From: Cystobacter ferrugineus | Lineage (GTDB): Bacteria; Myxococcota; Myxococcia; Myxococcales; Myxococcaceae | Assembly: GCF_001887355.1 (NCBI RefSeq) | Contig: NZ_MPIN01000006.1 | Span: forward strand, 434,001-498,000 | Direction of reading: 5' to 3' | DNA length: 64,000 nt | Part shown: one piece after another, positions 44,264 through 46,315 of the stretch | Numbering within the stretch: position 1 is the first letter of the stretch | How the letters are laid out: every line of letters starts with the position of its first letter | The notes under the pieces: model-generated | The model's input: the letters and a program-made list of their open reading frames with translations, nothing else | Told to the model about the DNA's origin: nothing | Databases searched by the model: none | Translations under genes and position numbers: made by a program

Positions 44264-44980
44264 TCACGGCGCCAGGACGAGTCCGTCGGCCACCCGGGTG
44301 TCCACGGCGGCACGGATGACCGCCTCCTGCACGCCCGTCGCCTCCGCCACCTGACGGGGCTCCAACCCCTCCACCGCCATTTTCAACACCAACAACGAGC
44401 GCTCCTCGGCCTCCAGGTACATCGTCACCAGCCGCTCGGGGTGGCGCCAGAGCAGCGCCAGCTCCTGTCCGGGCTCCGGCCGCGCCCCCACCCCGGCCCG
44501 CATGAACGCGCACAGCCGGAAGGGATGCTCCAACATCATCAGCGTCGGGTTCACCGTCAGGCGCTCCACGCGCTCGGGCAGGGGCTCCATCGACGTGTAC
44601 ACCGCGAAGTCCGTCCACTCGAAGCGCGCCAGCGCGGGCAGGAAGTCCGGCAGCCCCCGCGCCCCCACCTCGTCCGCGAGGAAGCCGGCGAAGCCCTCGC
44701 CCATCCGGTTCATCTCGAAGGGCCGGGCGGGACGCGAGGCACCATAGGCCCGCACCAGCTCCGCCCAGAGCGCCGGCTCCACGCACCCGCGCACCCGGGG
44801 GTAGAGCTTGTCCAGGGTGGCCTCGCCATGGTGACGCACCATCTGGCCATAGAGCGCCATGCGCGAGCGCGGCGCGTCCCAACCCGGGTGCGCCGCGTAC
44901 AGCCGCTCGAGCGCCTCCGGCCCCGGGTCCGCGAAGTACGCCTCCATCGACTCGAAGAAACCCCACAGTCCCGGTTTCAT
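44264..44980 (-). CDS. bufC: DUF2063 RiPP partner protein (BufC/HvfC-like)
   Basis: 238 residues from ATG 44980, which overlaps the stop of the DUF692 gene (ATGA), so the two are co-translated. The N-terminal part is the helical DUF2063 domain (RSRMALYGQMVRHHGEATLD, KLYPRVRGCVEPALWAELVR), and the C-terminal part resembles the RRE-like/winged domain of BufC proteins (MYLEAEERSLLVLKMAVEG). In characterised bufferin and related clusters this protein partners the MNIO enzyme and delivers the precursor peptide. The role here is inferred from gene order and family. Symbol by analogy. Confidence 0.82.
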   Translation of the reverse strand: MKPGLWGFFESMEAYFADPGPEALERLYAAHPGWDAPRSRMALYGQMVRHHGEATLDKLYPRVRGCVEPALWAELVRAYGASRPARPFEMNRMGEGFAGFLADEVGARGLPDFLPALARFEWTDFAVYTSMEPLPERVERLTVNPTLMMLEHPFRLCAFMRAGVGARPEPGQELALLWRHPERLVTMYLEAEERSLLVLKMAVEGLEPRQVAEATGVQEAVIRAAVDTRVADGLVLAP

Positions 44981-45822
44981 CGCGCCACCCCCCGGAGCAG
45001 CTCCCGCGCCCGATCCGCCTCGTCCAGCACCGCCTCCAGCGAGGGGATGTCCTGATCCCATTCGATCAACGTCGGCACCGGCCCGGTGCGCTCGAGCACG
45101 TAGCGGTAGAGCGACCACACCTCGTCGCAGACGGGCGCCCCATGCGTGTCGATGAGGACGTCGGGCCGCCGCTCGTGCCCCGCGAGGTGGATCTGCCCCA
45201 CGCGCTCCAGCGGCAGCGCGTCCACGAAGGCGCGCGCGTCATAGCCATGGTTGCACGCGTTCACGTACACGTTGTTCACGTCCAGCAGCAGGCCGCAGTC
45301 GGCCTCCTCGGCCACGTACCGCAGGAAGTCCGCCTCCGCCAGGGTGCCACCGGGCATGCGCGCGTAGTAGCTCGGGTTCTCCAGCAGGAAGGGCCGGCCC
45401 ACTCGCGCCTGCACCTCACGCACGCGCGGGACCACGTGCTCCACCGCCTCGGGCGAGAAGGGCAGCGGCAGCAGATCATAGAGGTAGGCGCCCCCCAGCC
45501 GCGCGTAGCAGAGGTGATCCGAGAAGAAGGGCGCGTCCAGCCGCTCCACCAGCGCCTGGAGTCCGGAGAGGTAGGCCTCGTCCAGCGGCTCCGGACCGCC
45601 CACGTTCAGCGCCACCCCATGCGGCAGGACCGGCCAGCGCTCGCGGCACGCGTCCAGCGCCCGCTGTGGACGGCCGCCGAGCGTGAGGAAGTTCTCCGGG
45701 ATGATCTCCACCCAATCCAGTGCGCGGGAGGTCTCCGGCAGCCGAGCATGGAACTCACGCCGCAGCCCGATTCCCACCCCGAGCGGCTCGCCGCCCCACC
45801 TTCGCGCGTGTGCCACCGGCAT
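44977..45822 (-). CDS. bufB: DUF692 multinuclear iron oxidative enzyme (BufB/HvfB/MbnB-like)
   Basis: 281 residues from ATG 45822, chosen because AGGAG stands seven bases before it; longer in-frame starts lack one. The TIM-barrel DUF692 motifs bearing the iron ligands are all there: LDWVEIIPENFL, FFSDHLCYARLGG, FLLENPSYYARMPG, LLLDVNNVYVNACNHG, QIHLAGHERRPDVLIDTHG and LIEWDQDIPSLE. These MNIO enzymes oxidise cysteines in precursor peptides, for example to 5-thiooxazoles in bufferins or oxazolones in methanobactin. With a Cys-rich precursor gene 107 bp upstream and DUF2063 downstream it forms a complete minimal bufferin-type RiPP cassette. Product chemistry is inferred. Confidence 0.9.
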   Translation of the reverse strand: MPVAHARRWGGEPLGVGIGLRREFHARLPETSRALDWVEIIPENFLTLGGRPQRALDACRERWPVLPHGVALNVGGPEPLDEAYLSGLQALVERLDAPFFSDHLCYARLGGAYLYDLLPLPFSPEAVEHVVPRVREVQARVGRPFLLENPSYYARMPGGTLAEADFLRYVAEEADCGLLLDVNNVYVNACNHGYDARAFVDALPLERVGQIHLAGHERRPDVLIDTHGAPVCDEVWSLYRYVLERTGPVPTLIEWDQDIPSLEAVLDEADRARELLRGVAR

Positions 45823-45929
45823 GTCGGCTCCTGGAAGAAAAGACACGGGCGGCGGGAAGAAGGCTCCCCACCACCCGGAAGACAACCCCCGGAGCACCGG
45901 GGGCCCATCCTCGACGGCTCCCGCGACGG

Positions 45930-46202
45930 CTACTTCTTGCCACCACAGCCGTTGGCGCCGCAGCCACCCGCGCCACAGCTGTGCTCACTGGACTTCTCGG
46001 TCGAGGGCGTCGCGGTGCCCTCGGCGGCGGGGGCAGCGGCGGCGGCGGGGGCGGCGGACTCGGCGGGGACCGCGCTGGCCGCGTGAGCGCTCGTGCTCTC
46101 CTGCTCGGCGGGAGCGGCCGCGGTCTTGGCGGTCGCACAGCCGGTCGCGAGCGCGCCGAGGGAGAGGGAGCCCACGAGGGCGGTCAGGGTCTTGCGGTTC
46201 AT
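45930..46202 (-). CDS. bufA: Putative bufferin-type RiPP precursor with lipoprotein-like signal
   Basis: 90-residue exported protein; AAAGGA sits eight bases before ATG 46202. The signal MNRKTLTALVGSLSLGALAT is followed by GCATAK, which can serve as a lipobox (ATGC) or leave a periplasmic mature peptide. A 45-residue Ala/Pro/Ser linker with no other feature leads to the tail EHSCGAGGCGANGCGGKK, three Cys each followed by Gly, like the CG-rich core motifs modified by DUF692 enzymes in BufA/HvfA precursors (DUF2282-like). The tail is short, lacking the repeated EGKCG pairs of long bufferins. Likely modified by the adjacent enzyme pair and used in metal (copper) handling; inference from characterised relatives. 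Confidence 0.8.
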   Translation of the reverse strand: MNRKTLTALVGSLSLGALATGCATAKTAAAPAEQESTSAHAASAVPAESAAPAAAAAPAAEGTATPSTEKSSEHSCGAGGCGANGCGGKK

Positions 46203-46277: not shown

Positions 46278-46289
46278 CCCGCACCACCA

Positions 46290-46315
46290 TACGCCCGGGG
46301 CCCGACGGGGTTACA
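46290..46315 (-). promoter_or_regulatory. Possible ECF-type promoter of the bufferin-like cassette
   Basis: On the minus strand TGTAACC is followed after about 15 bp by CGTATGG, an arrangement resembling ECF-sigma promoters (AAC ... CGT). It lies 88 bp upstream of bufA and just outside the inverted repeat. Hexamer-level evidence only. Confidence 0.3.

Follow-up and report, generated by a model that had tools for sequence, protein, structure and literature searches.

What does a myxobacterium make from a small, exported, cysteine-rich peptide encoded upstream of a DUF692 enzyme, and what does the lipoprotein-like end of its signal mean for the product? This question is raised by a three-gene cassette on the minus strand of a window from Cystobacter ferrugineus, a soil bacterium that lives as a predator, by which we mean the whole stretch of 64,000 nucleotides that was analyzed. 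The cassette comprises a lipoprotein RiPP precursor, P0001 (90 aa; 45930-46202), recognized by its ORF translation and homologues; an MNIO (DUF692/BufB-like) peptide-modifying enzyme, P0002 (281 aa; 44977-45822), recognized by Pfam, NCBIfam and an alignment with PDB entry 3BWW; and a DUF2063 partner of the PME type 1/HvfC-like kind, P0003 (238 aa; 44264-44980), recognized by Pfam and NCBIfam. A gap of 107 bp separates the precursor and MNIO genes, and an ATGA overlap joins the MNIO stop to the partner start. The earlier note on this DNA had described a compact bufferin-type cassette with this spacing and overlap, and the profile matches agree with that description. Ten window neighbors scanned with Pfam comprised a ScfR-type regulator, a chalcone-isomerase-like protein, a class-V aminotransferase (read as SerC), an M13 peptidase, a radical SAM protein, a TPR protein, a kinase, two PH-domain proteins and one protein without a match. 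No DoxX, transporter or copper gene was found among these ten, in line with the earlier statement that DoxX and transporter genes are absent nearby. In the genome as a whole (12.05 Mb, 42 contigs), six MNIO matches exceed the Pfam cut-off.

Inspection of the enzyme reveals intact active-site residues. P0002 scores 350.9 bits against Pfam MbnB_TglH_ChrH and 327.7 bits against NCBIfam MNIO_BufB (cut-off 310), and stays under the HvfB cut-off (296.6 versus 360 bits). The residues taken to be the iron ligands align together with their flanking motifs with 3BWW, and no ligand-motif residue checked is missing from more than one of the 53 enzymes, which upholds the earlier claim of a full MNIO ligand set. 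Correspondence with residues of FonB was established indirectly, through 3BWW and published residue pairs; by this route, the Asp matched with the proposed catalytic Asp249 of FonB is present in 53/53 enzymes, and the Arg pair that PMC13097082 connects with substrate binding is matched by R21 (53/53) and R22 (51/53). The position next after the Asp, presumed to equal FonB Phe250, is Gln in 50/53 enzymes, P0002 included, and the substrate preference of P0002 may consequently differ from that of known EGKCG enzymes. A tie between this enzyme residue and the residue before the core Cys was considered and rejected, given that Gln predominates and also occupies the site in the Cys-Lys-type enzyme L003. 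The partner P0003 matches Pfam DUF2063 (46.6 bits, cut-off 27.2), as had been proposed, and falls under the HvfC cut-off (54.3 versus 142 bits). It partly resembles SbtM, at 63.4 bits and thus far under that model's cut-off of 350, and a PDB sequence search with P0003 returned nothing at E<=0.001.

The precursor is not a chance ORF, as homologues occur in 64 of 145 genomes of the order and 69 of their 77 copies lie directly upstream of the cognate enzyme. To assemble the family, we searched 59 genomes (the window's own and those of relatives) with the protein and the 145 order genomes with a profile. Before counting, 6 weak precursor rows (E >= 5.6e-5) were dropped from the profile search and 18 MNIO rows of more remote kinship (E >= 4e-101) from a separate MNIO search. 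This Myxococcaceae precursor family spans nine genera, with members named in Archangium, Corallococcus, Hyalangium, Pyxidicoccus, Citreicoccus and Myxococcus, including M. xanthus AM003. Viewed from the enzyme, each of the 69 cognate-clade MNIOs follows a same-strand family precursor, with 7-166 bp separating the two matches, whose limits need not be the exact gene ends. The earlier note held that absence of the precursor from other DUF692 clusters would count against its reading; the reverse is observed. Eight copies are not adjacent to a cognate MNIO: that of G095 runs into a contig end, and each of the remaining seven is an additional copy in a genome where a precursor-MNIO pair is also present. 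In a 195-genome sample of the phylum, only one weak match fell outside the Myxococcaceae-level group f1 (G190, E 5.2e-8, one internal stop), and the viral contigs scanned with P0001 held no relative. Comparison of the window precursor with two same-genus copies gives a dN/dS of ~0.44, based on only 8 differing codons each. A Myxococcus-like cassette also appears in an assembly titled Comamonas sp. KCTC 72670 (L054), which is probably mislabelled or contaminated.

Sec-type signals of the precursors were judged by sequence pattern. The P0001 signal ends in L-A-T-G-C (residues 18-22; 46137-46151, minus strand), which we take to be a lipobox on the strength of two patterns, with C22 as the predicted lipidation site and Ala at +2. 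The 41 rows of alignment A2 agree without exception at M1, K4, V10, G11, S14, L18, G21, C22, C81, G82 and C86. Both patterns fit 53/53 distinct precursors, which had been picked with a lipobox-like pattern, and Ala stands at +2 in 52 of them. Because this selection demanded a lipobox-like end, the family search was redone by profile without the lipobox filter; a lipobox was present in all 86 matches, and the three flagged by the script also contain LATGC. What had been noted as a possible lipobox (ATGC) is thus a fixed trait of the family members examined. These results bear on whether the same chemistry might instead yield a bufferin that is cleaved by signal peptidase I and stays soluble in the periplasm, with the lipobox a coincidence. 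The -3 residue of P0001 is Ala, which is less typical of a lipobox at that position than Leu, and the signal of another MNIO precursor of the same genome (L003/L085) fits neither pattern. Most MNIO precursors, moreover, are reported to have Sec signals, with lipoproteins a minority (PMC12452194). We nevertheless judge a soluble product very unlikely, as G21-C22 is invariant in the 41 aligned members and a lipobox ends the signal of every distinct member found, even though C22 lies outside the repeat core.

Behind the signal, an Ala/Pro-rich linker (about residues 27-69; 45996-46124, minus strand) leads to the C-terminal tail EHSCGAGGCGANGCGGKK. Its core consists of three tandem 5-mers, EHSCG-AGGCG-ANGCG (45942-45986, minus strand), whose C76, C81 and C86 make up the Cys content of P0001 together with the lipobox Cys. 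Relatives often carry additional Cys units in their Ala/Pro-rich linkers, and their cores hold 2-6 Cys, with a Cys-Cys spacing of 5 the most frequent (85 cases). The most frequent core 5-mers in the family are EGSCG (32), AGSCG (17) and EGKCG (12). The window precursor is without EGKCG repeats and without Lys before Cys; its 5-mers nonetheless lie in exact register with EGKCG, and true EGKCG repeats are found in relatives such as L019, L057 and L068. From this 5-mer spectrum and spacing, the window core is therefore read as a degenerate EGKCG repeat. That is to say, the three CG units after a long linker that the earlier note had singled out as unusual are there, and they are less odd than supposed, being an exact 5-residue repeat.

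Profile models place the precursor less readily. P0001 matched no HvfA, Buf or Pfam precursor model; it contains no DUF2282 domain and so falls outside Buf1, and its three core Cys set it outside Buf2, with six or twelve conserved Cys. The NCBIfam HvfA models NF050137 and NF050188 do match 8/41 family members at E<=0.1 (best 5.2e-5), P0001 not being one of them. Matches of P0001 to CopL, superantigen-like, Alpha_GJ and other models were below the Pfam/NCBIfam cut-offs and were attributed to the Ala-rich linker. The core can also be read as C-x4-C-x4-C, and in a set of 23 loci we searched 225 predicted ORFs for HxHxDH, which we take to be the signature of Lactamase_B_2 genes, and found 0. Both observations concern the published, uncharacterised family of CxxxxC lipoprotein precursors (Cluster X in PMC12636315; CxxxxC in PMC12452194), to which P0001, with C76, C81 and C86 in the fitting spacing, might belong and carry that family's own modification. 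The published set is all from Pseudomonadati, a kingdom that includes Myxococcota, and Cluster X has lipoprotein signals. We consider this assignment unlikely, however, as a Lactamase_B_2 gene occurs in 54% of the published clusters, and relatives with plain EGKCG repeats tie the present precursors to oxazolins.

The reading we favor, with a probability of roughly 0.75, is that the cassette makes a lipid-anchored captophorin, an oxazolin/bufferin-type RiPP for metal capture at the envelope. Counted for it are the pairing of every cognate-clade MNIO with an upstream precursor, the invariant lipobox and core Cys, the score above the BufB cut-off, the conserved ligand motifs, the HvfA-model matches and EGKCG 5-mers of some relatives, a conserved promoter-like motif described below, and the precedents of NedA, fontiphorin and the Caulobacter sigmaF operons. 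Counted against it are the lack of a model match for P0001, the HvfB and HvfC scores below cut-off, the Gln at the presumed specificity site, the gaps in motif distribution, the lack of genome-wide enrichment of the loose motif and the absence of DoxX and copper genes from the scanned neighbors. For the chemistry, lipidation, localization, metal and induction of the cassette we infer the following sequence of events. The DUF2063 partner would present the precursor to the MNIO, which would oxidize the Cys residues of the xxxCG repeat core, with 5-thiooxazole as the most likely result (-4 Da each). The peptide would be exported by Sec, lipidated on C22 and cleaved by signal peptidase II. Ala at +2 of a lipoprotein predicts outer-membrane sorting, and the +2 Ala of P0001 would direct the peptide there. 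The Ala/Pro linker would then hold a head of three thiooxazoles, at which soft metals, most likely copper, may be bound at the envelope or on vesicles. Transcription would probably proceed from a sigmaF-type ECF promoter, from which we propose that metal stress would induce the cassette. A lipid-anchored MNIO peptide would thus have been kept across nine genera, the model Myxococcus xanthus included, and since the family is present in this tractable species the role of the anchor is testable by a single Cys change.

The putative promoter, GTAACC-N15-CGTATG (46288-46314, minus strand), lies 85 bp before the precursor start codon. It is the sole match of GTAACC-N14-17-CGTATG in the genome, for which the reversed control likewise gives one match, and it arose 0 times in 100 shuffles of the window. 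Across the family, GTAACC-N15/16-CGTA occurs at most 1.3 kb upstream of 36/49 distinct non-T6SS precursors, compared with 0/49 for the reversed motif, 1/49 for the opposite strand and a shuffle mean of 0.065 (maximum 2). These 49 precursors were de-duplicated by sequence and chosen by signal-peptide pattern among the loci examined, and L061/L094, which lies within a T6SS region, was counted with them. The distance from motif to precursor start is either 47-174 bp or 704-729 bp, in the latter case mostly with the motif before a YceI-like gene. Genome-wide, the loose motif showed no enrichment over its reversed control, and for this reason only its placement is informative.

Placement was next compared with the occurrence of nrsF. 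In a tally made by eye, the loose motif precedes at least one family precursor in 46/64 genomes and is missing before the precursor in 18/64, the Myxococcus xanthus group among them. Of the 64 genomes, 55 encode a strong NrsF orthologue (E 1.8e-24 or better), the other nine having none or a weak one (E 2.9e-7 or worse). The motif is present in 46/55 strong-NrsF genomes versus 0/9 of the others (Fisher p = 1.8e-6, uncorrected for descent), and all nine of these others carry genus code g23, so this contrast may reflect one or few losses. Nine of the strong-NrsF genomes lack the motif (G017, G026, G097, G105, G119, G127-G130), which speaks against a strict motif-NrsF rule. In six of 41 genomes (G016, G111, G112, G121, G126, G131), a same-strand copy of the motif follows the nrsF match, 6-69 bp past its end; in three such regions examined (L126, L127, L128), a motif after sigF-nrsF precedes a DUF1223-type gene, Pfam-confirmed for one. 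The genome of the window also holds an MNIO cluster at C1:1450656-1453986 (L085:5657-8987) whose SCKGD-repeat precursor has a non-lipobox (SPI-type) signal. Beside this cluster lie nrsF (33.6 bits, cut-off 26.8) and a gene for an ECF sigma factor, and its precursor is preceded by TGTAACC-N16-CGTC, at 63 bp when counted from the first base of the motif to the start codon. Two similar small secreted Cys proteins (CQLRKALCLIENAGNP), at L111:1188-1430 (contig C11 of the same genome) and L085:9878-10102, each follow a sigmaF-like motif, and the former matched no Pfam family.

Judging by the promoter motif, many myxobacterial captophorins may be part of a sigF-nrsF circuit; the motif also predicts co-regulation of extra precursors lacking an enzyme, YceI, DUF1223 and the small Cys proteins. 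The same gene company could be taken differently, namely that the MNIO installs another modification and that the product is no metallophore, serving for example as a surface signal or redox peptide. The DUF1223 gene and the small Cys proteins under the shared motif would suit such a role, as would the Gln at the presumed specificity site, the resemblance of the partner to part of SbtM and the chemical diversity of MNIOs (PMC12452194). We rate this as quite unlikely, since the enzyme exceeds the BufB cut-off, MNIO-PME1 pairs are reported to install 5-thiooxazole broadly, with fontiphorin as a precedent (PMC13097082), and in Caulobacter the sigmaF regulon responds to heavy metals (PMC3511200).

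Seven family precursors (L089, L090, L091, L092, L093, L094, L095) are without an adjoining cognate MNIO, and a precursor-MNIO pair is present elsewhere in each of their genomes. The sigmaF-like motif also precedes six of these MNIO-distant precursors (L089-L093, L095), and precursors far from their cognate MNIO suggest one enzyme serving several lipopeptides. In 13/23 loci (22 named ones together with the window), the precursor is preceded by a same-strand gene for a YceI-type secreted protein, as determined by sequence clustering with a representative tested by Pfam, and YceI is also found beside three non-adjacent precursors (Pfam-tested for L090); the window itself has no YceI neighbor. 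Upstream of the precursor in 19/23 loci there is also an ORF cluster (L058:4194-5942 and relatives), possibly a gene-calling artefact, whose 582-aa representative from L058 gave no Pfam match. Separately, the window's genome encodes at C18:186254-186970 (L006, L088) a distant MNIO domain in a frame of ~550 aa, beside a Cys-rich lipoprotein-like ORF.

A second family cassette of the same genome, again with lipoprotein precursor, MNIO and DUF2063 genes, is located at C1:501600-502730 (L002, L084). It follows genes read by sequence likeness as Hcp, TssF, TssG and VgrG, and then MORN-like and ricin-B-lectin-like genes. Similar arrangements occur in G002, G003, G084, G085 and G087, variable in content and some with PAAR or DUF4280, and no lectin was identified in that of L098; Pfam was applied to ten representative proteins of these five genomes and to two lectins (L042, L061), the remaining labels being by sequence likeness. 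The six T6SS-linked MNIOs form one clade (SH-aLRT 98-99, short search), and the sigmaF motif precedes 0/6 of their precursors. In Hyalangium G111 (L094/L101), a related MNIO-less precursor appears, likewise by sequence likeness, in a T6SS region. The role of the T6SS-linked cassette could be immunity, cargo or hitch-hiking. A bolder proposal, to which we give little credence, is that lipidated MNIO peptides have split into a sigmaF-controlled metal buffer of the envelope and a sister clade in T6SS operons (in the order VgrG, PAAR/DUF4280/MORN-like gene, ricin-B lectin, precursor, MNIO, partner), in which the peptide would be a weapon part or immunity factor. If true, a RiPP maturation pathway would be coupled to T6SS. 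The clade is unexpected and directly testable, and a T6SS lipoprotein, TssQ, is mentioned near bufferin clusters (PMC12636315).

How, then, does the cassette compare with known systems? Like Bufferin 2 (Buf_6/12Cys), it has an enzyme of the NCBIfam BufB type, and about 16% of Buf2 bufferins have lipoprotein signals in a study that also describes the CxxxxC precursors (PMC12452194); it differs in having three core Cys instead of six or twelve, and Cys-Gly instead of Cys-Lys. With the captophorins/Buf_EGKCG (fontiphorin, HvfA), it shares an MNIO with PME1, repeated Cys-Gly 5-mers and a Sec signal. In contrast to these, the window has no Lys before Cys, Gln at the presumed FonB Phe250 site, no DoxX in the scanned neighbors and, in every family member examined, a lipobox. 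Regulation finds its closest likeness in the sigmaF-NrsF regulon of Caulobacter, where GTAACC-N16-CGAA precedes DUF2282-DUF692-DUF2063 operons and responds to chromate and cadmium (PMC3511200). The two have in common the GTAACC -35 element, a spacing of 15-16 versus 16, MNIO/DUF2063 operons and, at another MNIO cluster of this genome, an adjoining ECF sigma gene and nrsF. They differ in a -10 element of CGTA, not CGAA, and in targets that are lipoprotein precursors, not DUF2282 peptides, with control in the myxobacteria inferred from sequence.

NedA/NedBC of Neisseria dentiae shares a lipobox precursor, an MNIO with partner and an xxxCG 5-mer core with three such motifs, which are modified in NedA; this lipidated EGKCG peptide has been made, tri-acylated and with -12 Da on the core (PMC12636315). 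The window differs in its degenerate 5-mers, Ala/Pro-rich linker and sigmaF-like motif, and in the stand-alone precursors of its relatives. The earlier note had proposed that a lipid-anchored peptide would be a variant layout; with lipoprotein signals already published for Buf2 (PMC12452194) and NedA (PMC12636315), that layout is not in itself new, and the cassette is a variant, not a new kind. The promoter, the stand-alone precursors, the YceI gene of relatives and the T6SS-linked paralogue are absent from that note, most of them being beyond the DNA it covered. A Myxococcaceae-wide, putatively lipidated family, its promoter and a T6SS-linked MNIO are undescribed in the titles and abstract openings among the matches listed, although a mention in a supplementary table is possible. 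Relative to these known systems, what is new here is the sigmaF-like promoter, the extra precursors distant from an MNIO, the YceI neighbor of the relatives and the paralogous T6SS clade.
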